Assembly (NCBI RefSeq): GCF_003002815.1
Contig: NZ_PVTF01000001.1
Span: forward strand, 558,001-622,000
Direction: 5' to 3'
DNA: 64,000 nucleotides
DNA from: Umezawaea tangerina
GTDB lineage: Bacteria > Actinomycetota > Actinomycetes > Mycobacteriales > Pseudonocardiaceae
In this document: positions 1-60,779 of the stretch, in pieces
Layout: every line of letters starts with the position of its first letter
Numbering within the stretch: the first letter of the stretch is position 1
Program-made: the position numbers and the translations under genes
Notes under the pieces: generated by a model
Database searches by the model: none
Told to the model about the DNA's origin: nothing
The model's input: only the letters and a program-made list of their open reading frames with translations

Positions 1-2
1 TG

Positions 3-851: not shown

Positions 852-1642
852 CTGTTCGGCTGCAAGCCGCGGGGCTCACGGTCGGGTACGGCGACCGGAT
901 GGTCGTCGACGGGCTCGACCTGGACATCATCGGCGGCACGGTCACCGCGGTGATCGGCCCCAACGGGTGCGGGAAGTCGACCCTGCTCAGGGCACTGGGC
1001 CGGTTGCTGCCCGCGCGCGGCGGAAGCGTGCTGCTCGACGGGAAGAAGATCGACGGGATCCCGACCCGCGAGGTGGCGAAGGTGCTGGGGATGCTCCCGC
1101 AGACCCCGCAGGCACCCGAAGGGCTGACCGTCGCGGACCTGGTGGCCCGCGGACGACAACCCCACCAGGCCTGGTACCGGCAGTGGTCCTCCGACGACGA
1201 GGCCGCGGTGGCCGAGGCGCTGCGGCTGACGGGGATGGACGAACTGGCCGAGCGGACGGTCGACGAGCTGTCCGGCGGGCAGCGGCAACGGGCCTGGATC
1301 TCGATGGCGCTGGCGCAGGGGACGTCGTTGCTGCTGCTGGACGAGCCGACGACGTACCTGGACCTCGCGCACCAGATCGACGTGCTGGACCTGGTGCAGA
1401 GACTGCACGGGGAGATGGGGCGGACGGTCGTGATGGTCCTGCACGACCTGAACCTGGCGGCGCGGTACGCGGAGCACCTGGTGGCGATGAAAGGTGGGCG
1501 GATCGTGGTGCAGGGGGAGCCGGGGGAGGTGCTGACGGAGGAGATGCTGCTGGAGGTGTTCGGGTTGGAGGCGAGGGTGGTGGCGGATCCGGTGTCGGGG
1601 ACGCCGCTGGTTGTGCCGATCGGGCATCGGCATCGGGTTTGA
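848..1642 (+). CDS. FecE/FepC-type siderophore ABC transporter ATP-binding protein
   Basis: ATPase of the ferric-siderophore importer; it binds the cytoplasmic face of the upstream FecCD permease and powers uptake. It has 264 residues, normal for the family. Walker A GPNGCGKST lies near residues 37-45, the signature LSGGQRQR near 141, Walker B LLLLDEPTTYLDLAHQ near 162, and the switch region VLHDLNLAARY near 198. The ATG overlaps the permease stop by four bases, so no separate ribosome site is needed. It is the last gene of the operon: repeat element copy 1 follows and the next gene is convergent. The binding protein and second permease are presumably upstream, outside the window. Confidence 0.93.
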   Translation: MTVRLQAAGLTVGYGDRMVVDGLDLDIIGGTVTAVIGPNGCGKSTLLRALGRLLPARGGSVLLDGKKIDGIPTREVAKVLGMLPQTPQAPEGLTVADLVARGRQPHQAWYRQWSSDDEAAVAEALRLTGMDELAERTVDELSGGQRQRAWISMALAQGTSLLLLDEPTTYLDLAHQIDVLDLVQRLHGEMGRTVVMVLHDLNLAARYAEHLVAMKGGRIVVQGEPGEVLTEEMLLEVFGLEARVVADPVSGTPLVVPIGHRHRV

Positions 1643-2076
1643 GGGGCTGCCTCCGGTTGCGTTGTTCCCACCCCGTGCGAAGCCCGGCCCCCGGCACTCC
1701 TGCCGTGGTAAGCCTCGTTCCGGCCGTCCCACCCCTGGTGAAGTCCGGCCCCGGTCGTCCCACCCCTGTGCGAAGCCCGGCCCCCGGCGCGCGATTGTCT
1801 CAATGCCCTGCCCCGCTTTGTCAAGACGATAAAGCCATCTTGACAAAGCGGGGCAGGGCAGGAGGGCGCTGTGTATCGGGGGCAGGGGTAGATCTGGCTT
1901 CGCCAGCATCGGGCTCCGCCCGACTCGGGCATCAGGCTTCGCCTGACCAGGCATCCTTGCTTCGCTGCGGACAAGGCCCCAGGCGCTCCGCGCCGGATGC
2001 GCGTTGGCGGGCTGCGCCCAACGGGGTGTTGGCGTGCTCGCCCTACGTCTACGCCCTGCGCCTCGCTGTTGCGGTT
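1643..2076. other. Intergenic gap between convergent genes, filled by dispersed repeat copy 1
   Basis: No gene is supported here. From 1650 to 1795 there are degenerate short repeats of the type 'ttcccaccccgtgcgaagcc', which lead into repeat element copy 1 (about 1770-2032). Short open frames in this gap are Gly/Pro/Arg-rich by-products of the repeat. Confidence 0.75.
1770..2032 (+). repeat. Dispersed hairpin repeat element, copy 1
   Basis: First of three copies of the same element (others at 54150-54425 reversed and 59304-59642). In order: the conserved block 'gcgcgcgattgtctcaa', a perfect 23-bp stem (1804-1826 paired with 1838-1860) around an 11-base loop, the block 'ggagggcgctgtgtatcggg', a small 'ggcttcgccagc' hairpin, two short units of the 'ggcatcc..gcttcgc..ggac' type, and the closing block 'gcgcgttggcgggctgcgcc'. 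It lies between convergent stop codons. It may act as a two-way terminator, but no clear T-run is present. Confidence 0.9.
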
Positions 2077-2880
2077 TCAGTGGCAGATGCGGGGGCAGGT
2101 GTCGCATTCTGTGGCGTTGGGGAGGACGTAGGTGAAGCAGCAGCTTTGGCGGCTGCGGGTCCATTCGCCGTTGGTGAAGCGCATGGTCGAGCCGGAGGTG
2201 AGGGGGGCGATTTTGTCTGGTAGGAGCATGGCGGCGTCGGAGACGCCGGTGGCCTCGTCGCCGCAGGAGCGGCCTGCCAGCCAGGTGCCCTTGTCCAACG
2301 CGTCGGTGGCGGCGGCCCAGAGCATGCGGCGGCCGAGGCGGACCGTGGGGCCGTAGGACTTGACGAACTCGGCGGCGTGGGCGACGTACTTGGCGCGGAG
2401 CAGGGCGGCGAGAGCGGATTCGTCGGCTACGACGGTGGCGGCGGGGTGGTTGCCCGCTGGGTCGTCGGGGAGGCAGGCGAACTCGTCCGACAGCAGCGCG
2501 ATGCCCGCGACCTGGGGGCGGTCGCCCGAGATGCGGAAGGCGAGGTCGGCGGGCTTCAGGGACGGGGCGCGGCGGGCGCTGTGGAAGAGGAGGCCTGCCA
2601 GTTGGGCGGGGACGCTGAGGTACCAGCCCATGACGTAGCCGGCGGTGGCGCGGTCGGAGGACTCGCCGTACTCGACCTCCAGCCAGCTCGCGAGCGCCTT
2701 GCGCCACCTGTCGAAGACCGTCGGGTCGGTGAGGGCGTCGGAGCAGAGGAGCCAGTCGTCGTGCTGTTCCGGGAGGCCGAAGCGGACCTCGACGTCATCA
2801 CCGCGGGAGGCGACCCTGGTGATGGACTCGGCAACGGGCGTGGACGCGTGTCGCGTCCGCACGTCGGCCGGTATCGTCAT
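2077..2880 (-). CDS. FhuF-like (2Fe-2S) siderophore-iron reductase
   Basis: Probable cytoplasmic ferric-siderophore reductase that frees iron after import. The C terminus carries the family's cysteine cluster, CCFTYVLPNATECDTCPRIC, matching the Cys-Cys-x10-Cys-x2-Cys pattern of the FhuF C-terminal 2Fe-2S domain; the remaining roughly 245 residues are weakly conserved in this family. Length is 267 residues. It faces the siderophore importer tail to tail. The ATG at 2880 is preceded by a purine-rich stretch, and an IdeR/DtxR-type iron box lies about 28-46 bases upstream, so repression under iron-replete conditions is likely. Other actinobacterial FhuF-domain proteins of unknown substrate look the same, so the siderophore is not identified. 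Confidence 0.85.
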   Translation of the reverse strand: MTIPADVRTRHASTPVAESITRVASRGDDVEVRFGLPEQHDDWLLCSDALTDPTVFDRWRKALASWLEVEYGESSDRATAGYVMGWYLSVPAQLAGLLFHSARRAPSLKPADLAFRISGDRPQVAGIALLSDEFACLPDDPAGNHPAATVVADESALAALLRAKYVAHAAEFVKSYGPTVRLGRRMLWAAATDALDKGTWLAGRSCGDEATGVSDAAMLLPDKIAPLTSGSTMRFTNGEWTRSRQSCCFTYVLPNATECDTCPRICH

Positions 2881-2907
2881 GGGCAGGGCCTCGCTGGTCC
2901 GGGTGGC

Positions 2908-2926
2908 TGAGGATTGCCTAACCTTA
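2908..2926 (-). promoter_or_regulatory. IdeR/DtxR-type iron box
   Basis: The 19-mer TGAGGATTGCCTAACCTTA agrees with the known DtxR/IdeR consensus TWAGGTTAGSCTAACCTWA at 16 of 19 positions, and the right half is intact. It sits directly upstream of the FhuF-like gene. Iron-dependent repression is inferred from the motif and the gene's role. Confidence 0.7.
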
Positions 2927-2994
2927 CCTAGTTCGCTCCCCGTTGGGCCTTGCGAGTGATGCCGGTCACCGAAGACTCCACCGAACGGGTGGCT

Positions 2995-3008
2995 GTTCGC
3001 GCTCAGCG
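2995..3008 (+). promoter_or_regulatory. ClgR-type operator upstream of clpC
   Basis: GTTCGC-N5-GCG (GTTCGCGCTCAGCG) fits the published actinobacterial ClgR consensus; the wider TGTTCGC..GCGGACA is an imperfect inverted repeat. It is about 200 bases upstream of the clpC start. ClgR is the known activator of clp genes in actinobacteria, so activation of clpC from here is plausible. A possible -35 TTGACG follows at 3050-3055. Confidence 0.55.
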
Positions 3009-3206: not shown

Positions 3207-5765
<2,559 letters not shown>

Positions 5766-5786
5766 GGTAGTAGCAGTAGCGCGAAG

Positions 5787-5817
5787 CGCCCCTGGTCTTC
5801 GGACCGGGGGCGTTTTG
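5787..5817 (+). terminator. Rho-independent terminator of clpC
   Basis: An 11-bp stem with one G-T pair (cgcccctggtc / gaccgggggcg) closes on a TTCG tetraloop and is followed by TTTT. It starts 22 bases after the clpC stop. Confidence 0.88.
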
Positions 5818-6416
5818 TGTGTTGTGGCTGGTGGGGGTTGGGGGCGGTTTTTGTCGGTGGTGGTGGGTAGCGTTTTGTGTCGGGGGGTCTTGGTTTTTGG
5901 GGGACCTGGCCGGTGGCGTGGGTTCCGTCTGGTTGGGGCCTGTTTGGTGGTGGGTTGGCCTGGTCGTGGTGGGTGTTGGCCAGGTAGCGGTTGGGTGGGT
6001 CCGCGGTTGAAGGTCCGTGCGTGGTGTGGTCGATTTGACTTGGGGCCCCTCGATCGGCCCTTGCCGGGCCTCAAGGGCAGGGTGGTGATGCAGCCCGACC
6101 GGCAAGTGTAAGGGCCGATCCCCCAAGTCAAATCGACCACGTTGAGTGGTGGTGTCGCGTTCCGGCGGGTTGGGTTGCTTCGGGCTTTCAAAGCGGAACC
6201 TGTGTTCAAGCGGCCTGCGTTGCTGTGGTTCGCAAGGCAGGTCCTGTCTCGCTTCGCCTCGCTCTGCCTAGCCCCGCTCCACCTGCCTCGCCCTGACCTT
6301 GCACCACCCCTGTCCCCACCAACCCCCTGTCCCCGCCACCTCCTGCCTCGCCCTGGCTGACCTGCGCGTCTGTCCAACTCGGCCTTGCCGTGTCCTCCTT
6401 CGGGCAGACTGGCTGG
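5818..6416. other. Gene-free gap after clpC, holding a 115-bp inverted repeat
   Basis: About 600 bases with no supported gene. The first half is a G/T-rich run of 'ggtggtggg'-type sequence. The middle holds the inverted-repeat element at 6026-6140. The last 250 bases are C-rich on the plus strand and lead to the EEP gene. No clear promoter hexamers were recognised. Confidence 0.7.
6026..6140. repeat. 115-bp long inverted-repeat element (MITE-like or large hairpin)
   Basis: The outer arms are a perfect 20-bp inverted pair: GTGGTCGATTTGACTTGGGG (6026-6045) and its complement at 6121-6140. Inside them GATCGGCCCTT (6052-6062) pairs with 6110-6120, and TTGCCGG (6061-6067) with CCGGCAA (6099-6105), so most of the element can fold into one long interrupted stem. 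No target-site duplication is evident. No second copy was seen in the window. Confidence 0.85.
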
Positions 6417-7400
6417 GTGGCCGATACCGAAGTGGTGCGACGGCGGCGGGTGGGTGGGGGGCCGTTGTCGGCTTTCCTGGTTCTGCTCACCGGGGTGTTC
6501 CTGGTCGCGGCGGGTCTTCGGTTGTTGGGGATCGACGGCAATCGGTACATGATCGCGGTGACCGCGTTGACGCCGTACACGGCGGCGGCGGGGGTGTTGT
6601 TGGGGTGTGTCGCGTTGCTGTTGCGCCGCTGGGCCGCCGGGATGGTGGTGTTGCTGGTGGCGGTGGTGCTGGTGGCGGCGGTGGCGCCCAGGGCGTTCCC
6701 GGACTCGAGGCCGAACGGGGTGGGGACCGAGGTCCGGGTGATGTCGGTGAACCTGCTGCTGGGGGAGGCCGACGCGGTGGGGGTCGTGGCGGCGGTGCGG
6801 TCGAACCAGGTGGACGTGCTGGCGTTGCAGGAGCTGACGCAGGAGGCCGTGCTGGCGTTGGACCGGGCCGGGCTCCGGGAGGTGTTGCCGAACCGGTTGT
6901 TCCAGCCCGAGGTCGAGGGGTACGGGTCGGGGATCGCGTCGAGGTACGGGTTGACCGCGAAGACGTTGACGCCGCCGAGCGGGATGAGGCAGGTGGGGGC
7001 GTTGGTGGACCTGCCGGGCTCGCAGGACATCGAGGTGCTGTCGGTGCACTCGACGCCGCCGGTGGTGCCGTCGGGGCCGGAGGCGTGGCAGCGGGAGCTG
7101 GCCGGGCTGCCCAACCGGGACGTGAACGGGCCGCCGAGGGTGTTGGCGGGGGACTTCAACGCGACGCTGGACCACGTGGGGCTGCGCAGGCTGCTGGCCA
7201 ACGGGTACGTGGACGCCGGTGACGAGGTGGGGGCGGGGCTGGAGCCGACGTGGCCGTCGGGGCGGTTCTGGCCGCCGCCGGTGACGCTGGACCACGTGCT
7301 GGTCGACAACCGCTGCCCGGTGGACACCTACGGTGTGATCACCATCGGCGGTACGGACCACCGGGCGGTCGTCACGCAGTTCGTCGTGCCAGCTCGGTGA
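6417..7400 (+). CDS. Membrane-anchored endonuclease/exonuclease/phosphatase (EEP) family protein
   Basis: The metal-dependent phosphohydrolase fold is placed outside the membrane. Three N-terminal hydrophobic segments lie between about residues 15 and 95. The catalytic domain then shows the EEP blocks in order: MSVNLLLGEAD, LALQELT (metal-binding Glu), LSVHSTPP, LAGDFNATLDH (Asp-x-Asn) and a final GTDHRAVV with the catalytic Asp-His pair. The same architecture occurs in actinobacterial proteins of unknown substrate, so nuclease, phospholipase and phosphatase are all possible. GTG 6417 is chosen so that the product begins shortly before the basic run before the first helix; GTG 6390 in the same frame is possible, and neither has a good ribosome site. 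The 3' end overlaps the convergent sirtuin gene by 29 bases. Confidence 0.82.
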   Translation: MADTEVVRRRRVGGGPLSAFLVLLTGVFLVAAGLRLLGIDGNRYMIAVTALTPYTAAAGVLLGCVALLLRRWAAGMVVLLVAVVLVAAVAPRAFPDSRPNGVGTEVRVMSVNLLLGEADAVGVVAAVRSNQVDVLALQELTQEAVLALDRAGLREVLPNRLFQPEVEGYGSGIASRYGLTAKTLTPPSGMRQVGALVDLPGSQDIEVLSVHSTPPVVPSGPEAWQRELAGLPNRDVNGPPRVLAGDFNATLDHVGLRRLLANGYVDAGDEVGAGLEPTWPSGRFWPPPVTLDHVLVDNRCPVDTYGVITIGGTDHRAVVTQFVVPAR

Positions 7401-18039: not shown

Positions 18040-18960
18040 GTGCGCAAGTTCCTCGACCGCCACTGGTACGCCTACGCGATGGTGCTGCCGGTCGTCGTGG
18101 TCATCGCCGTGCTGGTGCTCTACCCGTTGGCACAAGGCGTCTTCTTCACCTTCACCGACATCAACGAGGCCAACATCGCCAACCCGGTCCTCGACCGGGC
18201 GGCCACCTACGTCGGCGTCGGCCTCCGCAACTACCTCAACGTGCTCTCCGGCGACAGCAGCTACGGCTCGTTCTGGTCCACGCTCGTCCGCACCCTCATC
18301 TGGACGTTCTCCTGCGTGTTCTTCCACTACACGATCGGCCTCGGCCTGGCGCTGCTGCTCAACCGCGAGGTCCGCGGCCGCGCCGTCTACCGCGTGCTGC
18401 TGATCCTCCCGTGGGCGGTGCCCGCGTTCATCAGCGCGTTCACCTGGAAGTACATGTTCAACGCCCAGTACGGGATCATCAACCAGGGCCTGCGCGCCAT
18501 CGGCTTCGACGACCCGCCGGTCTGGCTCGGCCAGAACGACTGGGCCCTCGTCGCCGTCATCGTCGTCAACGTCTGGCTCGGCGTCCCGTTCATGATGGTC
18601 GCCCTCCTCGGCGGCCTCCAAGCCATCCCCGCCGACCTCTACGAAGCCGCCGAGGTCGACGGCGCGACCCCGTGGCAGCGCTTCCGCCACATCACGCTCC
18701 CCGGCCTCCAGTCGGTGTCGAGCACGGTGGTGCTGCTCGGCATCATCTGGACGTTCAACATGTTCGCGATCATCTACCTGATCACCGGACCCAACCCCAA
18801 CACCAGGATCCTGGTGACCTACGCGTTCGAGCGCTTCTTCTCCGGCGCCTCCCGCGACTACGCCATCGCGTCCACCTACGGCGTCCTGATCCTCTCGGTG
18901 CTGCTGGTCTTCGCGGGCGTCTACCGGCGCGCACTGCGCAAGCAAGGCGAGGTGTGGTGA
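18040..18960 (+). CDS. Sugar ABC transporter permease (MalF-type)
   Basis: Inner-membrane permease of the sugar importer, 306 residues with six predicted helices. The EAA loop that contacts the ATPase is visible as YEAAEVDGATPWQRFRHITL near residues 204-223. GTG 18040 has AGGAAGGGG nine to ten bases upstream. The stop overlaps the next permease start (TGATG). The roughly 40 residues between the first two helices include a conserved-looking DINEANIANP segment. It pairs with the following permease. Confidence 0.93.
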   Translation: MRKFLDRHWYAYAMVLPVVVVIAVLVLYPLAQGVFFTFTDINEANIANPVLDRAATYVGVGLRNYLNVLSGDSSYGSFWSTLVRTLIWTFSCVFFHYTIGLGLALLLNREVRGRAVYRVLLILPWAVPAFISAFTWKYMFNAQYGIINQGLRAIGFDDPPVWLGQNDWALVAVIVVNVWLGVPFMMVALLGGLQAIPADLYEAAEVDGATPWQRFRHITLPGLQSVSSTVVLLGIIWTFNMFAIIYLITGPNPNTRILVTYAFERFFSGASRDYAIASTYGVLILSVLLVFAGVYRRALRKQGEVW

Positions 18961-19856
18961 TGACGCTCGACGCCAGCTCACTCCAGGTCGTCCAACCCGA
19001 CCGCAAACCCCAACGCCGCAAGTCCCGCTCGCTCGGCGCCAGCATCGGCCTGCACGGCGCACTGGCGATCGCCTCCCTGATCGCCGTCTTCCCGGTGTTC
19101 TGGGTCCTCGTCACGTCCTTCAAACCGGACGCCCGCGCCGTCGAGACGACACCGAAGCTGTTCAACGAGTCCTCTGTGGACAACTACGTCGACGTGCTCT
19201 CCGGCGACAAGGGCAGCTTCCTGTCGTGGTTCGGCAACTCGGTGCTGATCGCCCTGATGACCACGGTCATCGCGGTGTTCCTCTCCGCCACGACCGGCTA
19301 CGCCGCGAGCCGCTTCCGCTTCCCCGGCAAACGCCCGCTCCTGCTGTCGTTCCTCGTCGTGCAGATGTTCCCGTTCGCGGTCCTCATCGTCCCCCTCTAC
19401 AACATCCTGCTGACCCTGGGTCTGCAAGGCCAGCAGTTCGGCCTGGTGCTCGTCTACTGCACCACCGCCGTCCCCTTCTGCACCTACATGCTCAAGGGCT
19501 ACTTCGACACCATCCCCAACGACATCGACGAAGCAGGCCGAGTCGACGGCCTCTCCCCGTTCGGCGTCTTCTGGCGCCTGGTTCTCCCCCTGGCCCGCCC
19601 CGGCCTGGCCGTCACCGCCTTCTACGCCTTCCTGACCGCCTGGGGCGAAGTCGCCTTCGCCTCCGCCTTCCTCTCCGCCGCCGACGAATCCAAAACCCTC
19701 GCCGTCGGCCTGCAGGTGTTCGTGCAGCAGAACCGCACCGAATGGGGCCACCTCGCCGCCGCCTCCATCCTCGTCGCAATCCCCGCCATCGCCGTCTTCT
19801 ACCTCGTCCAACGCTTCCTCGTCACCGGCCTGGCCTCCGGCGCCGTGAAGGGCTGA
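18960..19856 (+). CDS. Sugar ABC transporter permease (MalG-type)
   Basis: Second permease subunit, 298 residues, six helices after a basic N-terminal tail of about 25 residues. The EAA loop is DEAGRVDGLSPFGVFWRLVL near residues 188-207. The ATG shares one base with the preceding stop, so translation is coupled. A perfect 11-bp terminator hairpin follows seven bases after the stop and ends the operon. Confidence 0.93.
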   Translation: MTLDASSLQVVQPDRKPQRRKSRSLGASIGLHGALAIASLIAVFPVFWVLVTSFKPDARAVETTPKLFNESSVDNYVDVLSGDKGSFLSWFGNSVLIALMTTVIAVFLSATTGYAASRFRFPGKRPLLLSFLVVQMFPFAVLIVPLYNILLTLGLQGQQFGLVLVYCTTAVPFCTYMLKGYFDTIPNDIDEAGRVDGLSPFGVFWRLVLPLARPGLAVTAFYAFLTAWGEVAFASAFLSAADESKTLAVGLQVFVQQNRTEWGHLAAASILVAIPAIAVFYLVQRFLVTGLASGAVKG

Positions 19857-19862
19857 CACCTC

Positions 19863-19888
19863 GTGGGGGACGCTCCGGCGTCCCCCAC
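19863..19888 (+). terminator. Terminator hairpin of the sugar importer operon
   Basis: Perfect 11-bp stem GTGGGGGACGC/GCGTCCCCCAC with a TCCG loop, starting seven bases after the permease stop. It lacks a T-run, which is common in high-GC actinobacteria. Confidence 0.75.
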
Positions 19889-20750
19889 GGGTTGCTCCTG
19901 TCCCCCGCGGGTTTTGCTCCCGTCCCCGCAGGTTGCCCCCCGTCCCCATGGGGCGCCCCGGTCCCCACGGATCGCCCCCGTCCCTACGGGGTCGCGTGTC
20001 CTCCGCGGGGTGGCCAGTCCTCTGCGGGGCGGCCGTCGCCGTGGGGTGCCCGTCGCCATGGGCTGGTTGTCCACGGGCCGTCTGCTGCCCACGGGGTGCC
20101 CGATCTCCGTGTGTCGCCCGTTCCCCACGGGCCCGTCCCCCACGGCGCCGGTCCTCCCACGAGTGGCGGTTGCTCACGGGGCGCTCGATTCCTGCGGCCC
20201 ATCCGATTCGCGGGACTACCCGATCCCGCGGGCTGCCTGATCCCCGCGGGCTGCCCGATCTCGCCGCTCGCTACGGGCCACCCGCCGCCGAGCATCGAGC
20301 AGGCTGGCCCGCCGAACCGCACTGGCCCCGCCCGCTCACCCGCCGAACAGCACTGGCCCCAGCTGCTCGCCCTCCGCACCGCGTCGGACCAGGTCGGCTG
20401 CTCGCCGGACCGCGTCGCGCCCCAGCCGCCGACCCGCCGGACCGCCGCCACTGAGCCCACGACGCCATCGCTGATCACCGATGCGACTGCCGCTCCAGTG
20501 TCGCCACCGCGACCGCCACCGCCACCGCGACTGCCGCGCCAGTGTCGCGACCGCCGCCGCCGCCGTCACCGCCGCCGCCGCCGATGGCGACTGCCGCCCC
20601 AGTGTCGCCACCGCGACCGATGGCGACCGCCAGAGCCGACCGTCGGAGCCGATGGCGACCGTCTCTTAGGCCCCGACCGCCGCCACCGACGGCGACCCCC
20701 ACCCCCGGTGTCGACTGTCGGTGGTGGGTGGGGACCGATCTATTTCCCAC
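19889..20750. repeat. Gene-free degenerate minisatellite region
   Basis: About 860 bases without a supported gene. From 19889 to about 20290 there are degenerate units of roughly 25-30 bases built on 'cccgtcccc..ggggt', similar to the adjoining terminator arm. From about 20480 to 20680 a second family repeats 'gcgactgccgcNccagtgtcgc' and 'gccgccgccgcc'. Frames through it encode low-complexity Pro/Arg/Gly strings on both strands and change frame freely, so they are not genes. Confidence 0.7.
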
Positions 20751-20755
20751 AACGC

Positions 20756-20769
20756 TGAGAGCGCTTCCA
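20756..20769. promoter_or_regulatory. LacI/CebR-like operator
   Basis: TGAGAGCGCTTCCA matches 12 of 14 positions of the known CebR-type operator TGGGAGCGCTCCCA and has the AGCGCT centre typical of LacI-family sites. It lies about 220 bases upstream of the MsiK-type gene. Confidence 0.45.
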
Positions 20770-20928
20770 CGCCCCTACTCCCACCACCCACCCCAACGCC
20801 CAACTCCAAGCCGAACCCAGTATCCACCCTCCCCCGACCAGCCCAAATACCTCACCATTCACCCAATAGGCGGAACCTCTCACACCACCGCAGAACCCGC
20901 CGAAAACTAGACCAATCCCCCTGTTCCC

Positions 20929-52849: not shown

Positions 52850-53356
52850 ATGAGGATCCACAGGGCCATCCCGCTCGTCGTGCTGTCGATCGCCGGGCTC
52901 GTCCCGCTCTGGCTGTACGACCCGACGGCGACGGAGACCACCGAGGTCGCCGCCGACGTCGGCATCGTGCCGGAGGCGCAGACGCAGACCAGTACCGAAC
53001 CGCCCACGACCACCACGTCCAAGCCCGCCGACTCCGGTTACGGCACCACGGCTCCGCCCACCACGACGACCAGGAAGCCGACCACGAGCGCCGCCGTGAA
53101 GACGGTCAACGGTCCGGTGGTCAAGACCGTCCACGGCGACGTCCAGGTGCAGGTCACCTTCACCGGCGACAAGATCACCGCCGTCAAGTTCCTGAAGCAG
53201 CCCAACACCGGCCCCACCAAGATGGCCGCCCCGCTGCTGATCCAGGAGACCCTCAAGGCGGGCAGCGCCGACATCGACAGCGTGTCCGGCGCGACCCAGA
53301 CCAGCGAGGGCTACGTGAAGTCGCTCCAGGCCGCCATCGACGCCAAGGGGAACTAG
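52850..53356 (+). CDS. Exported FMN-binding-domain protein with flavinylation motif
   Basis: 168 residues. An N-terminal anchor (6-23), then a Thr/Pro-rich spacer (about 35-80), then one FMN-binding domain (85-168). The motif DSVSGATQTS holds the Ser-Gly-Ala-Thr acceptor, with Thr149 as the predicted covalent FMN site, matching targets of ApbE flavin transferases. It begins 12 bases after the reductase with a GGAAGG ribosome site and ends three bases before apbE, so all three are one operon. It is probably an electron carrier at the outer face; the terminal acceptor is not shown. Confidence 0.92.
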   Translation: MRIHRAIPLVVLSIAGLVPLWLYDPTATETTEVAADVGIVPEAQTQTSTEPPTTTTSKPADSGYGTTAPPTTTTRKPTTSAAVKTVNGPVVKTVHGDVQVQVTFTGDKITAVKFLKQPNTGPTKMAAPLLIQETLKAGSADIDSVSGATQTSEGYVKSLQAAIDAKGN

Positions 53357-53358
53357 CC

Positions 53359-54111
53359 GTGCTCACCGGTCTGCGCAGGGTCGAACAGGTCATGGGGCTG
53401 CCCGTCTCGGTGGACCTGCGCGACGGCGACGAGCGGACCCGCCACGCGGTCGACCGCGCGTTCGCCTGGCTCCAGGAGGTCGACCTCCGCTTCAGCCCGT
53501 TCCGCTTCGACAGCGAGGTCTCCCGCCACGGCCGCGCGGAACTGGCGCCCGAGGAGTTGAGCGACGAGCTCGCCCACGTCATCGACCTCTGCGACCACTA
53601 CGAGCGCAGCACCGGCGGCGCCTTCACCACCCGCCTACCCGACCACGCCTTCGACCCCTGCGCCATCGTCAAGGGCTGGGCCGTCCAAGGCGCCGCCACC
53701 ATCCTCCAGGACGCGGGCGCCCGCCGCTTCTGCGTCAACGCCGGCGGCGACGTCGTCACCTCAGGCGAACCCGAACCCGGCCTCCCCTGGCGGGTCGGCG
53801 TCCGCCACCCCGACCACGCCGACCAGCTCTGCGCGGTACTGGCCCTCCGCAACGGCGCCGTGGCCACCACGGCGAACTACGAACGAGGCAACCACATCAT
53901 CGACGGCCGCACCGGCCAACCAGCCCGCGACCTCCTCAGCATCACCATCACCGCCAACGACCTCATCACCGCCGACGCCGTCGCCACCGCCGCCTTCGCC
54001 ATGGGCACCGAAGGCATCACCTGGGCCGCCACCCAACCGAACTGCGAAGTCTTCGCCATCAACTCATCCCGCCACGTCTTCCGCACCCCAGGCCTACCCA
54101 TCGCCACCTAA
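53359..54111 (+). CDS. apbE: FAD:protein FMN transferase (ApbE family)
   Basis: Attaches FMN from FAD to a Thr/Ser in the D(x)SGA(S/T) motif of target proteins. 250 residues, shorter than the roughly 300-350 of most ApbE proteins. Visible blocks are FSPFRFDSEVSR, DPCAIVKGWAVQGA, FCVNAGGDVVTSG, HIIDGRTGQPA and the metal-binding ITADAVATAAFAMG. No signal peptide or lipobox is evident, so it may work in the cytoplasm before export or be released otherwise. The likely substrate is the preceding FMN-binding protein. Repeat element copy 2 starts right after the stop. Confidence 0.93.
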   Translation: MLTGLRRVEQVMGLPVSVDLRDGDERTRHAVDRAFAWLQEVDLRFSPFRFDSEVSRHGRAELAPEELSDELAHVIDLCDHYERSTGGAFTTRLPDHAFDPCAIVKGWAVQGAATILQDAGARRFCVNAGGDVVTSGEPEPGLPWRVGVRHPDHADQLCAVLALRNGAVATTANYERGNHIIDGRTGQPARDLLSITITANDLITADAVATAAFAMGTEGITWAATQPNCEVFAINSSRHVFRTPGLPIAT

Positions 54112-54149
54112 TCCCCCCGATGCGAAGCGAGCAGCCACCCCACCCCCGT

Positions 54150-54425
54150 TGGGCGCAGCCCGCCAGCGCGCATCCGGCGCGGAGCGCCTGGGGCCTCGTC
54201 GGCGCCAGCCGATGCCTTGTCCGCCGCGAAGCGCGGATGCCTTGTCCGACGGCGAAGCCGAGGATGCAGTGTCGAGCGCAGCTCGATGCTGGCGAAGCCA
54301 GACTCCCCCTCTGCCCCCGATCCACAGCGCCCTCCTGCCCGACCTTCGTTGTCAAGACAGCTTTATCGTCTTGACAACGAAGGTCGGGCATTGAGACAAT
54401 CGCGCGCCGGGGGCCGGGCTTCGCG
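54150..54425 (-). repeat. Dispersed hairpin repeat element, copy 2 (reverse orientation)
   Basis: Same blocks as copy 1 in reverse complement. The stem is a perfect 23 bp (54336-54358 with 54368-54390) around a 9-base loop; its outer half differs completely in sequence from copies 1 and 3 yet stays fully paired. Three 'gccttgtccg..gcgaagc' units lie at 54200-54290. It again sits between convergent genes. Confidence 0.9.
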
Positions 54426-54659
54426 CGGTTGCCCACAACCCACCGGCTTCCCTCTTCCCCTTGCCCCCCACCACTCCCAAGCCTCCAAACCGGACACCCC
54501 TCACATCGGAGCGTCGACCGGGGGTGACGGTACGCACATGCCTCTGCTATCTTGCTGTGCAAGGGAGTTCTGCTCCCCTCCACGGATGTTGATCAAGAGC
54601 AAGTCGGGTTTCGCGCTCGGGGTGAGACCCGAACTGCTGTGGACCAACCCGTGGAAGGC

Positions 54660-54701
54660 CGGCCCCGCGCACTCGTATTCGGGAACTTGTGCGCGGGGCC
54701 G
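54660..54701 (-). terminator. Hairpin terminator after the ADP-ribosylglycohydrolase gene
   Basis: A perfect 13-bp stem (CGGCCCCGCGCAC and its complement) with a 16-base loop, about 90 bases past the stop on the minus strand. Confidence 0.65.
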
Positions 54702-54789
54702 TCCTCCTATCCGGACGCCTTTCCAGACCTCCGAACCGGACACCGAACCGGACACGGAACCAGTCACCGGACCAGACGCCCGGACCCCC

Positions 54790-55830
54790 TCACAAGTACC
54801 GCGACTCGTCGAACTCCTCCCCCGACGCCGACCTCCCCAGGTCCCGCCCCAGCTCCGTCAACTCATCCACCAGCTCCAGCCCGACGAGCCAATCCCTTGG
54901 CAGCACAGCGGTTCCGTGCAGAGCTCCCAGGATGTTCCCGGTCAACGCCGCCGTCGCGTCACTGCCGCCGGAGTGGTTCGCCGCGGCTCGCAGCGCGTCC
55001 ACGAACTCGGACTTGCGCGGGTAGACCAGGACTGTGTGGACGGCTATCGCCAGCGCCTCGGGCCCGGTCCACCCGCTGCCGAGCCGGTCGACCCGCACCG
55101 AGTCCAGGCCCAGTTCGCGGTGTTCCTCGGCGAACACGACGGCCCGGTTCAGCGCGTTCGCGGTGTACGGGTCGTCGCGCAGCACCCGGCCGATCACCTG
55201 GTCCACCGCTTCGCGCACCGGGCGGCCGCGCACCGCGAGCAGGTGGATCAGCAGCGCCATAGCGCCGCCGGACACCCACCCGCCGGTGCCGCCGTGGGTC
55301 AGCGCGGCGAACCGGCAGCCCAGGTCGTAGGCGATGGCCGCGCTCGGCGCGAACCCGGCGGGCGCGGTGCGGGTGACCCCGTTGCAGCCCGACGACTCGT
55401 TGTGCGGTGCCTCAGGTGTCGGCGGCACGTCCGCGGCCAGCGCCCGCAGGCACGTCAGGCCGGGGGAGCGGCTGGAGTACAGCCGCTCGTTGGCCAGCAG
55501 CCCGACCGCTCCGGGTTCGGGCGCGGCGATCTGCTGGGTGACCAGCCACCGCCGGTAGCTGTGCCAGACGGTCTCGATGGGCTCCCAGGCGCCGGTCTTG
55601 CGACCGTGCACGTACGCCCGCAGGTACCCGTCCGCGGTGAACAGGGTGAGCTGCGTGTCGTCGGTGACCAGGGCGGGCCGGGGTGGCGCGATCACGCCCT
55701 CCGGGCCGTGGTCGCGCTGGATGTCGGCCCAGCCCAGGTACTGCACCGGTGCGCCCAACGCGTCGCCGAGCGCACCTCCGAGCAGGCACGCGGCTCCACG
55801 GTCGACCACCGCCAAAGGGTCGCGCGGCAC
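54790..55830 (-). CDS. ADP-ribosylglycohydrolase family protein
   Basis: Removes ADP-ribose from proteins or small molecules; 346 residues. DraG-type metal sites are visible: LGGALGDALGAPVQ at the start, VTDDTQLTLFTADGYL near 57, GGWVSGGAMALLIHLLAV and the C-terminal NHSGGSDATAALTGNILGALHG. No ADP-ribosyltransferase (DraT or toxin) is adjacent. ATG 55830 is about 160 bases from the divergent regulator gene. Substrate unknown. Confidence 0.9.
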   Translation of the reverse strand: MPRDPLAVVDRGAACLLGGALGDALGAPVQYLGWADIQRDHGPEGVIAPPRPALVTDDTQLTLFTADGYLRAYVHGRKTGAWEPIETVWHSYRRWLVTQQIAAPEPGAVGLLANERLYSSRSPGLTCLRALAADVPPTPEAPHNESSGCNGVTRTAPAGFAPSAAIAYDLGCRFAALTHGGTGGWVSGGAMALLIHLLAVRGRPVREAVDQVIGRVLRDDPYTANALNRAVVFAEEHRELGLDSVRVDRLGSGWTGPEALAIAVHTVLVYPRKSEFVDALRAAANHSGGSDATAALTGNILGALHGTAVLPRDWLVGLELVDELTELGRDLGRSASGEEFDESRYL

Positions 55831-55996: not shown

Positions 55997-58816
55997 ATGG
56001 CTGAGGGCGACCACGGCGCACCCGGCGCCCGCGGCCGGACCGGTCTGGAGTTCGGCGTGCTCGGCCCGCTGCAGGTGCTCGCCGACGGTCGTCCCGTGGT
56101 CCTCGGGCGCAAGGGGATGCGCGGGCTGCTCGCCATGCTCGTGCTGGACGCGAACCGGGTCGTGCCCATCGACGAGATCGTCGACCGGATCTGGGCCGAG
56201 GACCCGCCCGCGACCGCCCGCACGATCGTGCACGGGTACGTGTCGAAGCTCCGCAAGCTGCTGGAGGAGGCCGACCCGACCGGGTCCGCCTCGATCCTGA
56301 CCAGCCCGCCCGGCTACCAGCTGGAGATCGACCCGTGGCGCCTGGACCTGCACCGGGCCCGTCAGCTGATCTCCTCGGCGCGGGGCAAGCCCGCCGCGAT
56401 GCGGGCCGGTCTGCTGCGCGAGGCCCTGGGCCTGTGGCGCGGCCAGGTGCTCGCCGACGTGCCCGGCAACCCGATCACCACCGACCTCGACGAGCTGCGC
56501 ATGTCGGCGTTGGAGGAGCGCATCGAGGCCGAGCTGGAGCTCGGCCGCCACCTGGAGCTGGTCGGCGAGCTGCGCCAGCTGGTCACCGAGTACCCGTTCC
56601 GCGAACGGCTCGTCGCCCACTCCATGCGCGCCCTCTACCGGTCCGGCCAGCGCGCCGACGCCCTGGAGGCCTACCAGCGGTTCCACCGGCGGGCCGTCGA
56701 GGAGCTCGGCATCGACCCCGGCCCCGACCTGCGGCTGCTGCACGAACGGGTGCTGCGCGACGACCCGGTGCTCAGCGACCCCGGCGCCGCCGACCGCCGC
56801 TCCCAGGAGCCGCGCCCCGGCGTGGTCGTCCCGCAGCAGCTGCCCGCCGCGGCCAGCGGGTTCATCGGTCGCGGCGCCGAGCTGGCCTGGCTGGACCGGC
56901 TGTGCGAGCAGCGCGACCTCATGGCGACCACCATCGCGCTGATCGACGGCGCGCCCGGCATCGGCAAGACCGAGCTGGCCGTCACCTGGGGGCACCGGCG
57001 CGCCGAGCTGTTCCCCGGCGGTCTGCTGTTCGCCCCGCTGCACGGCTTCGAGGGCGACCGCAGGCCCGTCGAGCCCACCGAGGTGCTGGCCAGGTTCCTG
57101 CACGCCCTCGGCGTGCCCTCCGACGCCGTGCCCGACGACCTGCCCGACCGGGTCGGCCTCTACCGCTCGCTGCTGGCCCGCCGCCGGGTGCTGGTCGTGC
57201 TCGACGACGCGTGGGACCCCGACCACGTCCGGCTGCTGCTGCCGCCCGGCGCCGGGTCGGTGGTGCTGATCACCAGCAGGCGCAAGCTCGAGGGCCTGGT
57301 CGTGAGCAACAGCGCCCGGCTGCTCACCCTGGGCAGGCTCAGCGAGGCCGAGTCGATCGACCTGGTCGACGAGGTCGTCGGCGAACCGATCTCGAAGTAC
57401 GACCCGGTGTCCGCCGGGATGCTCGTCGAGCTGTGCGGGTACCTGCCGCTGGCGCTGCGCATCGCCGCGGCCCGGCTCGCGATGAGTCCGGAGTGGACGA
57501 TCGACGAGCTGGTAGCCGAGCTGTCCGACGACAGCAACCGGCTCCGGACGCTGGAGCTGCCCGAGATCGGCGTCCGCCGGGCGCTGGAGGTCTCCTACCG
57601 GTCGCTGGCGCCGGAGCTGGCGGGCGCGCTGCGCGCCGCGGGACTCGTGCCGGGGCGCTGGGTCAGCCCGCACGCCGTGGCCGCGATCTGCGACACCGAC
57701 GTGCCCACCGCGGGCTCCCGGCTGTCCGACCTGGCCGACGCGCACCTGCTGGAACAGCCGTGGTCGGGCGGGTTCGTGCTGCACGACCTCGTCCGGCTGT
57801 TCGTGCGCGAGGTGACCGGAGACCCGGCCGCGCGCACGGCGGCGCTCCAGGCGTTGATGGAGCACTACCTGGCCGCGTGCGACCACGCCCGGAGGTTGAT
57901 CAGACCGAGCAAGGACGGCCTGTCCTTCCCGGCGCCGTACTCCTACGACCGGCCCGCCACGTCCGCGGAAGCGCTTTCCTGGTTCGACCGGGAGTGGCCG
58001 AACATAGTGGCCCTGGTGCACGCGGGAGCGGAAACGGGGCTGCACAAGCAAGTCTGGCAGCTGGTGCGGCTGGTCCACACCTACTGCCTGGCCAGGACGG
58101 TCGTGCGCGAATGGGTCGCGCTCGCCGGGTTCGGGCTGGCGTCCGCGCGGGTGAGCGGCGACGAGCTGGGCGAGCTGTTGCTGCTGCACGCGGTGAACGC
58201 GACCAGCGTCCGGTTCGGCATGCTGGCCTCGTCGCTGGCGGACGCGCGCCGAGCGCACCGGATCGCGGTGGGCCTCGGGGACCCGCGGTACCAGGTGCTG
58301 ACGCTGGGACAGCTGGCGAACGCACTGGCGGCGGTGGGCGACCACGAGGAAGCGCTGCTGCGGCACTGGGCGTCGATCGACCTGGCCAAACGCGAAGGGG
58401 ACGTCCTGGGGCAGGCGACCGGGCTGAACAACATCGCCCAGGTCGAACAAGCGCTGGGACGACGGGAAATCGCCGCGGCACACCAGTTCCAGGCGATGGA
58501 GATCTACCACCGCAGCGGGGACGAACGGGCCTACGTGCTCGCGGTGAACAACCTCGCGGAGCTGTACGTGGAACTCGGGCGCCTCGGCGAAGCCGAGGAC
58601 TACGCCCGCCAAGGCGTCGACCTGGCCCACGCGGGGGCGATGCCGTTCGAAGAGGCGTTCGGGCGGCAGGTACTCGGTTCGGTGCTGGCGCGGAGAGCGG
58701 AAATGGTAGCCGCGCAAGCGGAACTCACCGAATCGCTGAGGCTGTTCGAACAGGTGGGATCACCTCGGGCGGTGCTGGTGAGAACGGCCCTGGAGGTCTT
58801 GACCTCCGAGGTTTAG
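55997..58816 (+). CDS. AfsR/SARP-family transcriptional regulator with NB-ARC and TPR domains
   Basis: Large STAND-type regulator, 939 residues. OmpR-like winged helix at about 18-100 (FGVLGPLQVLADGRPVVLG), bacterial transcriptional activation domain to about 255 (PFRERLVAHSMRALYRSGQR), NB-ARC ATPase with Walker A DGAPGIGKTELAV near 318 and Walker B VLVVLDDAWD, then TPR repeats from about 690 to the end (ALLRHWASIDLAKREGDVLG). ATG 55997 has GGGAGG six bases upstream. SARP proteins switch on antibiotic clusters, but no biosynthetic cluster is visible in the window, so its target is elsewhere or of another type. Confidence 0.93.
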   Translation: MAEGDHGAPGARGRTGLEFGVLGPLQVLADGRPVVLGRKGMRGLLAMLVLDANRVVPIDEIVDRIWAEDPPATARTIVHGYVSKLRKLLEEADPTGSASILTSPPGYQLEIDPWRLDLHRARQLISSARGKPAAMRAGLLREALGLWRGQVLADVPGNPITTDLDELRMSALEERIEAELELGRHLELVGELRQLVTEYPFRERLVAHSMRALYRSGQRADALEAYQRFHRRAVEELGIDPGPDLRLLHERVLRDDPVLSDPGAADRRSQEPRPGVVVPQQLPAAASGFIGRGAELAWLDRLCEQRDLMATTIALIDGAPGIGKTELAVTWGHRRAELFPGGLLFAPLHGFEGDRRPVEPTEVLARFLHALGVPSDAVPDDLPDRVGLYRSLLARRRVLVVLDDAWDPDHVRLLLPPGAGSVVLITSRRKLEGLVVSNSARLLTLGRLSEAESIDLVDEVVGEPISKYDPVSAGMLVELCGYLPLALRIAAARLAMSPEWTIDELVAELSDDSNRLRTLELPEIGVRRALEVSYRSLAPELAGALRAAGLVPGRWVSPHAVAAICDTDVPTAGSRLSDLADAHLLEQPWSGGFVLHDLVRLFVREVTGDPAARTAALQALMEHYLAACDHARRLIRPSKDGLSFPAPYSYDRPATSAEALSWFDREWPNIVALVHAGAETGLHKQVWQLVRLVHTYCLARTVVREWVALAGFGLASARVSGDELGELLLLHAVNATSVRFGMLASSLADARRAHRIAVGLGDPRYQVLTLGQLANALAAVGDHEEALLRHWASIDLAKREGDVLGQATGLNNIAQVEQALGRREIAAAHQFQAMEIYHRSGDERAYVLAVNNLAELYVELGRLGEAEDYARQGVDLAHAGAMPFEEAFGRQVLGSVLARRAEMVAAQAELTESLRLFEQVGSPRAVLVRTALEVLTSEV

Positions 58817-58939
58817 CGGGTGTTTAGCGCGACGGGGGCCGGGTCTGGCAACTTGGAGTCGGGCGCTGATCACCTGAGCTGATCAGGGTCCGGGGTGGCA
58901 CTTGAGGGGGGAACTCAAGGGGGGAGCCACCCGCGGTGG

Positions 58940-58983
58940 CCGGCCGGCATTCGGGGGAGAGTGCCGGCCGGTCATCTTTTTTG
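58940..58983 (+). terminator. Rho-independent terminator of the SARP gene
   Basis: A perfect 10-bp stem (CCGGCCGGCA/TGCCGGCCGG) with a 12-base loop followed by 'tcatctttttt'. One of the few hairpins here with a real T-run. Confidence 0.88.
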
Positions 58984-59020
58984 TGGTTCGGGTCTTGGTG
59001 GGGTTCGGTTCCGGCTTGGC

Positions 59021-59321
59021 TCGGCCTTCGGTGAGGCTGGTTCCCGGTGGGCCTTGGGTCCGGTGGAGTCTGGCTCCTGGTTGCGTGGTTCCCGCCTCCG
59101 CGAAGCTCGGCTCTGGCTTAGGTCGGCCTTCGGTGAAGGTTGCTCCCGGTGGGCCTTGGGTCCGGTGGAGTCTGGCTCCCGGTTGAGTCGTTCTCACCCC
59201 CGCGAAGACCGGTCCTCTTAGTCCGGCCTTCGGTGAAGCTTGCTCCTGGTGGGTCCTGGGCCCGGTGGAGTCTGGCTCCCGGTCCCGTTGTTCCCGCCCC
59301 TGGTGAAGCCCGGCCCCCGGC
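59021..59321. repeat. Tandem repeat, about 100-bp unit, three copies
   Basis: 'cggccttcggtga' starts copies at 59021, 59123 and 59222, and 'ccggtggagtctggctcc' recurs in each. The last copy runs into the conserved start of repeat element copy 3 through 'ggtgaagcccggcccccgg'. Similar but shorter 'cgaagcccggcccc' repeats precede element copy 1. Confidence 0.88.
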
Positions 59322-59642
59322 GCGCGATTGTCTCAATGCTCCACCCTGCTTTGTCAAGACGGTGAAGCTGTCTTGACAAAGCAGGGTGGAGCAGGAGGGC
59401 GCTGTGTATCGGGGGCAGGGGTAGGTCTGGCTTCGCCAGCATCGAGCTGCGCTCGACAAGGCATCCTCGGCTTCGCCGTCGGACAGGGCATCCTCGGCTC
59501 CGCCGTCGGACAAGGCATCCTTGGCTTCGCCGTCGGACGGGGCATCCGCGCTTCGCGGCGGACAGGGCATCGGCTGGCGCCGACGAGGCCCCAGGCGCTT
59601 CGCGCCGGATGCGCGTTGGCGGGCTGCGCCCGTCGGGGGTGT
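59304..59642 (+). repeat. Dispersed hairpin repeat element, copy 3
   Basis: Longest copy, same strand as copy 1. The stem is a perfect 24 bp (59337-59360 with 59370-59393) around the 9-base loop GGTGAAGCT. The inner half CTTTGTCAAGA is shared with copy 1; the outer half differs from copy 1 at several positions on both arms. About five 'ggcatcctcggcttcgccgtcggac' type units follow (59459-59587), and the closing 'gcgcgttggcgggctgcgcc' block is intact. Confidence 0.92.
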
Positions 59643-59717
59643 TGTGCTTGCTTTGTGTGGTGTGTTGGTAAAAGGATCTTGTTGCTGCTGTTGGTGTTGC
59701 CGTTGGTGTTGCTTGTA

Positions 59718-60485
59718 TTAGTCGCGGCTGATGGGTAGCAATTCCGGGCGCTTGGGGGCTAGGCCGTCGCCGGTGGATTCGCCGCGTACCAGGCGGCCGA
59801 CCCAGGGCATGACGTGTTCGCGGGCCCATTTGAGGTCGCGGCGGCGTTGGGTCATCCAGTCGGATTCCTGGGCGGGGGGCCAGGGGGTGTTCCAGGGTTC
59901 CGGTGTTGGGAAGCCGAGGACTTCGGCTGCCCGTAGGGCTACGCGGTGGTGGCCTTCGGGGGAGAGGTGGAGTCTGTCCTCGCTCCAGGCTCGCTTGTCC
60001 TGGAGGATCGACATGGCCCAGAGGTCGATCATGTGGCAGTGGTAGCGGTCGGCGACTGACCACAGGTGGGTGTTGTAGATGGCGATCTTGCCGCGCAGCG
60101 AGCGCAGGAGCGGGGTGCTCTTGGTGTCGAAGCCGGTGAAGACGATGACCTCGCTGCCCGCGGCGCGGAGGTCGGCGACGCCGATCTCGTAGACCTCGGC
60201 GAGCGCGTCGGGGTCGGTGCCGGGGGTGAGGATGTCGTTGCCGCCGCCGCAGAAGGCGACGAGCTGGGGTTTCAGGGCGACCGCCAGTGGAAGCTGCTCT
60301 TCGACGATCTCGTGGAGGGTCTTGCCGCGGATCGCGAGGTTGGCGTAGCGGAAACCGTCGCGCTGGGTGGAGATCATCGCGGCCAGGCGGTCGGCCCAGC
60401 CCATGAAGTTGCCGTCCGGACCGGGGTCGTCCATGCCCTCGGTGAAGCTGTCCCCGATCGCCACGAAGCTGTCCAAGTCCTGCAC
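59718..60485 (-). CDS. SGNH/GDSL-family esterase or lipase
   Basis: Hydrolase of 255 residues. Block I is FVAIGDSFTEGMDDP (catalytic Ser), block II has Gly in NLAIRGKT, block III is FCGGGNDIL (Asn), and block V DRLHLSPEGHHRVA has the Asp and His. No signal peptide, so intracellular. ATG 60485 is the only sensible start. A C-terminal extension after residue 205 is Trp/Arg-rich. Substrate unknown. Convergent with the SARP gene. Confidence 0.9.
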   Translation of the reverse strand: MQDLDSFVAIGDSFTEGMDDPGPDGNFMGWADRLAAMISTQRDGFRYANLAIRGKTLHEIVEEQLPLAVALKPQLVAFCGGGNDILTPGTDPDALAEVYEIGVADLRAAGSEVIVFTGFDTKSTPLLRSLRGKIAIYNTHLWSVADRYHCHMIDLWAMSILQDKRAWSEDRLHLSPEGHHRVALRAAEVLGFPTPEPWNTPWPPAQESDWMTQRRRDLKWAREHVMPWVGRLVRGESTGDGLAPKRPELLPISRD

Positions 60486-60779
60486 CTGCGATCCCCTCCC
60501 TCTGCGCGGCCCGTGCCCATCCCCTCAGGGGCCGCGCGAACAGCATGCCTCCAGGTCGTTCGCCGTCGCCACCGAAGGTGATGGAACCGTAGACGCGGGA
60601 CGACGTCGAGGTAAACCGAATTGGCGACGAATGGATTCCCGAACCCCTAGAACTCGTTATCCGCCCGTGTCTTTCCATCACTCTTTCGAGGGACGAGATG
60701 TGTGCATTGGGCGGTTTATCGCAATTCGGCCCCTACCCTTTGCGGTTTCGCAGACCAGTCGATCGCGCCTGGAGAGGCC
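60486..60779. other. Divergent gap between SGNH and small anchored-protein genes
   Basis: 294 bases. The centre (60600-60740) is relatively AT-rich and probably carries both promoters; no clear hexamers or operators were recognised. Confidence 0.5.

Follow-up and report, generated by a model that had tools for sequence, protein, structure and literature searches.

A dispersed hairpin element at gene 3' ends in Pseudonocardiaceae and the local strand asymmetry that follows its orientation

Introduction

What is a folded, repeated stretch of DNA doing in the gaps in which two genes meet tail to tail? The question is raised by a 64,000-nucleotide stretch of the Umezawaea tangerina chromosome (here the window; positions 558001–622000 of contig C1 in the 10.68-Mb source genome, G000). 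A sequence-only reading of the window had reported three copies of a hairpin element with shared blocks at 1770–2032, 54150–54425 (reversed) and 59304–59642, each between convergent genes, and had suggested either a function at transcript ends, such as two-way termination, or an element that is tolerated only there. Strand asymmetry in bacteria is usually put down to replication or to gene transcription. The element described here, short and noncoding, appears to set strand asymmetry locally, in either orientation, at more than 100 sites per genome.

Results

All three copies lie where they had been reported. A 20-base 5' box was found exactly at 1787–1806 (+), 54388–54407 (−) and 59320–59339 (+) and had no match in shuffled windows. 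Independent gene calls, made with a custom codon-statistics caller trained on the same DNA, placed each copy in a convergent gap, namely between genes 848–1642 (+) and 2077–2880 (−) for copy 1, 53359–54111 (+) and 54790–55830 (−) for copy 2, and 55997–58816 (+) and 59718–60485 (−) for copy 3. The shared blocks proved to be parts of a larger element composed of a 5' box, a long hairpin, a 3' box, an array of small hairpins and a 3' block. In copy 3 (59313–59635, +), the 5' arm of an outer helix (GCCCCCG, 59313–59319, with its partner CGGGGGC at 59410–59416) precedes the 5' box (59320–59339), whose ATTGTC reads as the −10-like hexamer GACAAT on the other strand. There follow a long perfect hairpin made of variable arm, cap and variable arm (59337–59393), the 3' box, which ends in the 3' arm of the outer helix (59394–59416), and the small-hairpin array with the 3' block (59426–59635; loops TNC on the + strand and GNA on the − strand). 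Copy 1 (1780–2019, +) likewise comprises an outer helix, a long hairpin (1804–1860; variable arms and the cap TTGTCAAGAC...CTTGACAA, with one C·A mismatch next to the loop) and an array of small C(TNC)G hairpins with the 3' block (1893–2019); the outer ends of copies 1 and 3 are not sharply defined. Copy 2 occupies 54155–54420 on the − strand, and its long hairpin (54336–54390) consists of 13-bp variable arms and the cap. Degenerate direct units of about 35–40 bp (..GAAGCCCGGCCCCCGG..TCCCACCC..) precede the elements at window positions 59100–59310 and 1660–1780; just one such unit is present in several aligned orthologues from a relative with a complete 11.8-Mb genome (G002).

The core of the element (112 aligned positions, 24 paired columns) folds into two parts, an outer helix and a hairpin of 24 bp; the hairpin's cap hardly varies between copies, whereas its arms are complementary to each other but hypervariable. 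On the top strand, the order is outer helix, 5' box GATTGT(C/G), long hairpin, 3' box ending ATCGGGG and a G-rich tail. The outer helix reads GCACCCCGA/TCGGGGTGC or GCCCCCG/CGGGGGC, and its best version has at least 5 pairs in 147 of 168 elements from the window, G002, U. endophytica and other genera, in a search that favours finding one. In G000 elements the G-rich tail is followed by the small-hairpin array and the 3' block. The C(TNC)G loop is found in 416 of 487 array triloop stems, whereas the background counts are 5 of 230 (intergenic DNA elsewhere) and 48 of 2219 (coding DNA). Read from the opposite strand, the loop is C(GNA)G, a type that is unusually stable in DNA. The array is absent from the copies examined in the congener U. 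endophytica DSM 103496 (genome G001, Pseudonocardiaceae), and the cap there is exact over 29 bases in 73 of the 80 listed caps (control, 0). The core alignment (A2) showed no conserved GTAG or CGTC tag, but where the element ends on the outside is not sharply defined.

The arms vary together. In an alignment (A3) of 34 chosen rows, 98.8% of cells pair, with 154 changed on both sides, 2 on one side and 10 unpaired; slid controls gave 35–46%. Watson–Crick, G·T and other pairs number 1607/8/7 in 125 G000 hairpins, 687/3/2 in 52 G002 hairpins and 364/15/10 in 27 U. endophytica hairpins (among these are 7, 3 and 6 matches, respectively, for which no 5' box was recognised and part of which were read on the wrong strand). 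For 66 hairpins, among them one chimera, from a set of named loci (at least 80 among the matches listed: 65 from Amycolatopsis, 12 from U. endophytica and 3 from Actinokineospora), the counts over the inner 12 pairs are 771/5/16. Since G·T is not favoured over other mismatches overall (31 vs 35), pairing seems to be maintained either in the DNA itself or simultaneously for both strands. Chimeras with unmatched arms account for 2 of the 92 listed G000 copies and for one in the named loci. In these hairpins (G000:C4:281965–282045, G000:C14:158982–159063 and L312) the two arms belong to different arm types, and they look as if copies had recombined inside the cap.

The family extends far beyond the window. 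In G000, 132 box matches with up to 3 mismatches were obtained (1 in the control), as were 92 exact two-box matches (0 in the control). The genome-wide covariance-model search that had been proposed for the element returned at least 150 matches in G000 and at least 150 in the complete G002 genome; counts in 12 chosen genomes were at least 150, 117, at least 150, 52, 90, 58, 79, 88, 27, 23, 65 and 1. Model R1 at E ≤ 0.001 matched 51 of 297 sampled Pseudonocardiaceae genomes, representing 12 of 46 genera. An order-wide sample gave matches in 21 of 397 genomes, 20 of them within Pseudonocardiaceae and one, weak (E 8e-6), in another family of the order (G478:C1:2307660–2307767). The copies studied are mostly those from exact-box searches, so that diverged members are under-sampled. 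Diverged sister elements, with the same cap and other boxes, were seen at L103:1590–1702 (−) and L101 (about 2668), with local skew down to −0.37 and about −0.2, respectively. The earlier impression that the element belongs to no named family holds for Rfam 15: at gathering score tRNA alone matched in the window, and at a relaxed threshold all matches to copy 3 were far below cut-off, mostly microRNA hairpins. A literature search by titles and abstract openings, with most subscription journals outside its coverage, found no account of the element. A phage or plasmid home is unlikely, as plasmid records searched with two family members and phage records searched with one gave no match; the copies sit on large contigs.

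Convergent placement, first seen in the window, is borne out genome-wide. Of 118 copies in the examined G000 DNA, 117 have a gene on each side, and their gaps are convergent in 81 cases, tandem in 34 and divergent in 2, compared with 182 convergent gaps among 961 in the same DNA (enrichment p 3e-32). Predicted genes contain none of the 118 copies, although one copy extends 45 bp into the end of a gene. The bias recurs in G002 (convergent/tandem/divergent 24/14/1, n = 39), U. endophytica (17/11/0, n = 28, 2 contig-edge copies dropped) and other genera (13/9/2, n = 24, 2 edge copies dropped). The named loci, most of them from Amycolatopsis, show it less strongly (16/21/5, n = 42, 24 edge copies dropped), with other gaps convergent in 53 of 378 cases. 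Context counts for G002, U. endophytica and the other genera cover the copies that the hairpin pattern caught, with duplicates removed. The 3'-end bias is thus genuine, though weaker in Amycolatopsis. Three loci (L213, L232 and L250) have two elements 150–300 bp apart within a single convergent gap; the two are oppositely oriented in L213 and L232.

Such a location is what a two-way terminator or 3'-end RNA element would show, its hairpin folding in the transcripts of both neighbours and ending or protecting them. Tandem copies in G000 are indeed closer to the upstream gene's stop in 25 of 34 cases, and the rarity of G·T pairs, no commoner than other mismatches in G000, is expected if the RNAs of both strands fold. 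However, the three window gaps contain no terminator-like site (hairpin plus T-run), orientation in the tandem gaps is not fixed (14 same, 20 opposite), and termination neither predicts nor explains an element-oriented mutation footprint that reaches up to about 1 kb into the neighbouring genes (see below). Judged by its sequence, an element without a T-run is not a classical intrinsic terminator. We consider this explanation distinctly unlikely, with termination as a possible extra role. Of what the sequence-only reading had offered, the 3'-end bias therefore stands and an element tolerated only there fits best, but two-way termination is unsupported.

Around the copies, local strand asymmetry is set by the orientation of the element itself. 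Near the element, C on the top strand is replaced by T or G, synonymous sites included. A plain profile of the window is negative near the reverse copy (54.3 kb) and positive near 59.4 kb and 1.8 kb. The zone of copy 1 (1–3000, +) has a GC skew of +0.06 to +0.24 in 6 of 6 500-bp bins, which drops to about 0 at 3 to 5.5 kb, and that of copy 3 (58000–60500, +) ranges from +0.08 to +0.21. In the zone of copy 2 (53000–55000, −), the + strand skew is −0.12 to −0.25, meaning that here, too, the top strand of the element is G-rich. When the 118 G000 copies were oriented by element, the mean GC skew peaked at about +0.28 on each side and fell below 0.06 at a distance of about 1 kb (upstream) or 1.5 kb (downstream); T was likewise in excess over A. 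Third codon positions shift alike in genes of either strand; for instance, in opposite-coded genes 0–500 bp downstream, top-strand C at third positions goes from 0.44 to 0.13, G from 0.51 to 0.71 and T from 0.02 to 0.16. Control convergent gaps more than 3 kb away (n = 38) had skews of −0.007 and +0.008, compared with +0.183 and +0.193 in host convergent gaps (n = 81). A skew over |0.15| was reached in 95 of 117 element-centred 1.5-kb windows vs 49 of 1506 others, part of these 49 lying at sister elements. Both flanks were positive for 110 of 116 copies in G000, 45 of 46 in G002, 31 of 38 in the named loci, 18 of 27 in U. endophytica (both negative in 4 of 27) and 5 of 7 in other genera, where the footprint is weak and slightly negative more than 500 bp downstream.

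The two sides of the footprint differ in extent. The fitted decay lengths of C depletion are 935 bp (3' side) and 296 bp (5' side) for G000, and 1000 bp and 457 bp for G002. This longer 3' side is confined to these two genomes; the named loci (mean skew 0.211 at the 5' and 0.096 at the 3' side) and U. endophytica (0.189 and 0.058) show the opposite, a greater skew at the 5' side. Other strongly skewed stretches, without a recognised element, were also noticed, namely window 18500–20900, a region with a 1.1-kb gap and a hairpin at 19862, window 5700–7200, L113 (about 300–2000), which has a large inverted repeat near 830–960, and L115 (about 300–1500).

The direction of the neighbouring genes alters the footprint little. 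Tandem copies of either orientation show C depletion, which indicates that neighbour transcription is not the sole driver, and read-through from neighbouring genes was rejected as the only cause. Transcription may nonetheless contribute, as the 5'-side skew is weaker in tandem-opposite than in tandem-same copies (0.061 vs 0.125). These data bear on an R-loop model, in which RNA made from the element in the top direction would stay paired to the bottom strand, stabilised by its G-rich sequence, and the displaced top strand would deaminate. A top strand rich in G and T, a stronger downstream footprint in G000 and a stronger 5'-side effect next to 5' genes transcribed in the top-strand direction all agree with it. 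The model is nevertheless unlikely in our estimation: neighbour read-through alone does not suffice, given that the 20 tandem-opposite copies have a similar 3'-side footprint; the sole promoter-like site found reads the other way; and any start within the element would have the upstream half of the footprint behind it.

Three further candidates were rejected or became unlikely. Replication-fork direction had no detectable effect (skew 0.191 vs 0.173, p 0.30); the top strand is the lagging template in 36 of 56 copies (Fisher p 0.058; G002 dnaA at 5.50 Mb). A dose effect of the small-hairpin array was not apparent (rho 0.06), and U. endophytica, whose examined copies have no array, shows the footprint too. 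Nor does any perfect hairpin do the same: 37 others far from elements had a mean |skew| of 0.051 vs 0.188 in the 81 convergent and 0.141 in the 34 tandem host gaps, and one of the top two among these 37 is a sister element.

Many copies are shared between genomes. Both flanks of 33 distinct G000 copies were found in a region around a G002 copy, and the G002 hairpin was present in the same gap for 30 of 32 copies examined (absent for L112:4999 and L078:15149), a degree of sharing that is overstated because the regions were chosen around G002 copies. Conversely, 47 G002 elements were tested, of which two had an empty G000 site and the rest were shared or lay beyond the G000 DNA examined. Three loci are common to G000 and U. 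endophytica by their flanks, and both flanks of L071 recur in a locus of another genus (L254) that also has the hairpin. As cap and arms are species-typical, the copies seem to evolve in concert. In some orthologous gaps the element is oppositely oriented in two species (L086:4999 and L189; L135/L210; L110/L067), representing inversion or independent insertion.

These comparisons also concern the possibility that the element is a selfish single-strand transposon or a nickase target. Its bottom strand would then be nicked at the hairpin and trimmed, the footprint would be a by-product, and copies elsewhere would be purged. High copy number, empty sites and patchy spread suit such an origin, and a footprint on one strand at both sides of the element fits a one-strand gap. 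We nevertheless rate it as rather unlikely in view of the sharing of most mapped copies and of three negative results. The Y1 (REP-type) transposase PF01797 was found in 0 of 14 element-rich genomes (and in 2 of 14 genomes without an R1 match), which makes mobilisation by a RAYT unlikely; flanking protein families, compared without annotation, occur at most 8 times each in G000; and no target duplication was evident in eight alignments, which were poor at the two empty sites. Of the terminal inverted repeats and target-site duplication that define a MITE, the outer helix could represent the former, yet the alignments at the empty sites revealed neither a clean boundary nor a duplication.

The effect can be measured directly by comparing orthologous sites that have the element with ones that lack it. 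At the four such sites available (two G000-only, two G002-only), the shift occurs only in the genome with the element. Changes were pooled over these four sites within 1.3 kb, with the empty state taken as ancestral. At third positions, C>T amounted to 119/1313 vs 17/1293 for G>A, and C>G to 299/1313 vs 81/1293 for G>C. The corresponding values at 2.2–6 kb, a class that overlaps the zones of other elements in some loci and is therefore not a clean baseline, were 31/1778 vs 44/1296 and 165/1778 vs 138/1296. First and second positions near the element agreed (C>T 89/1630 vs G>A 17/1688), with A>G similar near and far (0.043 and 0.039). Between −300 and 0, T or G had replaced 37.9% of top-strand C, whereas A or C had replaced 1.8% of G. 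G>T at third positions was raised near the element as well (28/1293 vs 2/1296 far). The pooled spectrum had no APOBEC-like TpC context. Overall, it is C-centred and strand-specific, much as in deamination of single-stranded DNA. The association alone would be compatible with an asymmetry older than the element, which would merely insert into G/T-rich strands. This is very improbable, because skew is lower at orthologous sites that lack the element, whichever genome is the one without it, and because divergence at third positions, about 0.13 otherwise, reaches about 0.22 near shared copies.

Discussion

We prefer to read the element as a putative folded single-strand-DNA promoter or priming site that would work like a plasmid single-strand origin (sso), without claiming that it belongs to the sso. 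The strand opposite the top strand carries, in most hairpins, TTGACA, 18–19 nt and a NANANT-type hexamer (GACAAT, CACAAT, GATAAT, AATAAT). This hexamer is found in 192 of 197 hairpins and a spacing of 18 or 19 in 186 of 197; as the pattern fixes three of six letters and the copies are homologous, with those of U. endophytica possibly falling in two groups, the promoter-like spacing is suggestive only. The site opposite the top strand of copy 2 (TTGACA-18-GACAAT, 54371–54400, +) was accepted by a standard promoter scan, those of copies 1 and 3, where the spacing reads 19, were not. In predicted DNA folds of both strands of copy 3, ACAAT is unpaired, and the arrangement of a single-strand-DNA promoter, with −35 and spacer in the stem and −10 unpaired, can be recognised from sequence alone.

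The data establish the footprint, and its mechanism is inferred. In the proposed mechanism, the top strand near the element would recurrently be single-stranded. Its exposed cytosines would deaminate, yielding C>T directly and C>G via uracil removal and error-prone bypass. The exposed strand would fold so that the hairpin provides a double-stranded −35 (TTGACA) and spacer, the latter formed by the arms, next to an unpaired −10 (ACAAT). Host RNA polymerase would start at the folded element and prime copying of the top strand toward the 5' side, as at a plasmid single-strand origin, which would leave a shorter exposed zone on that side in G000 and G002. The folded-promoter model would also explain why the arms are free in sequence, nearly fixed in length and paired without G·T preference. 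Fold-back copying of one arm from the other may keep the arms matched, and copies would be retained at 3' ends because the mutation load can be tolerated in these places. Several observations speak against individual steps. In the named loci and in U. endophytica it is the 5' side that is stronger, and the longer 3' side, not being general, lowers the odds for priming. C deamination does not predict the rise of G>T, the match to a −10 hexamer is incomplete, the spacer exceeds the customary 17 nt, and there are chimeric copies with unmatched arms. We therefore put forward only tentatively that a folded DNA element acts on one strand, with a single-stranded top strand and priming. Somewhat more doubtful is the broader proposal of a chromosomal family of folded single-strand-DNA promoters or priming sites, distributed across a bacterial family, that would repeatedly expose one strand over about 1 kb, each copy being a built-in, strand-specific source of C hypermutation for the 3' ends of adjoining genes.

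The elements offer natural replicates for locating single-stranded DNA in bacterial chromosomes, and the C-terminal parts of many genes in element-bearing actinobacteria may evolve under a strand-specific mutation source.

Among known phenomena, kataegis-like clustered C mutation in single-stranded DNA is C-centred and strand-coordinated, with C>T and C>G. Changes near the element share these features, but they are tied to a fixed element, affect the same strand on both sides, have built up over evolutionary time and lack a TpC preference. Plasmid single-strand origins and single-strand-DNA promoters (sso, Frpo of F, sti of pIJ101) are orientation-dependent folded DNA acting on one strand, with −35 and spacer in a stem and −10 in an unpaired part. 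With its predicted fold and proposed action on one strand, the element resembles them in these points. In contrast to them, it is chromosomal, with 23 to at least 150 copies in 11 of 12 genomes counted, and in the plasmid and phage records tested no rolling-circle or conjugative replicon was found to carry it. REP repeats (GTAG and CGTC families) are palindromes of 20–40 bp with a stem of 5–13 bp that occur mainly between unidirectional and convergent ORFs (PMC3733652). The element is similar to REP/BIME in being dispersed, intergenic, palindromic and located at gene 3' ends, but its core exceeds 110 bp with a 24-bp stem, the element-rich genomes searched have no Y1 transposase, and it has an oriented mutation footprint. 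The asymmetry associated with mitochondrial control regions is likewise tied to the orientation of a noncoding control element and read at degenerate sites (PMC4182315). Unlike the mitochondrial case, the asymmetry around the element fades within about 1–2 kb, is repeated at more than 100 sites and involves C>G as well as C>T.
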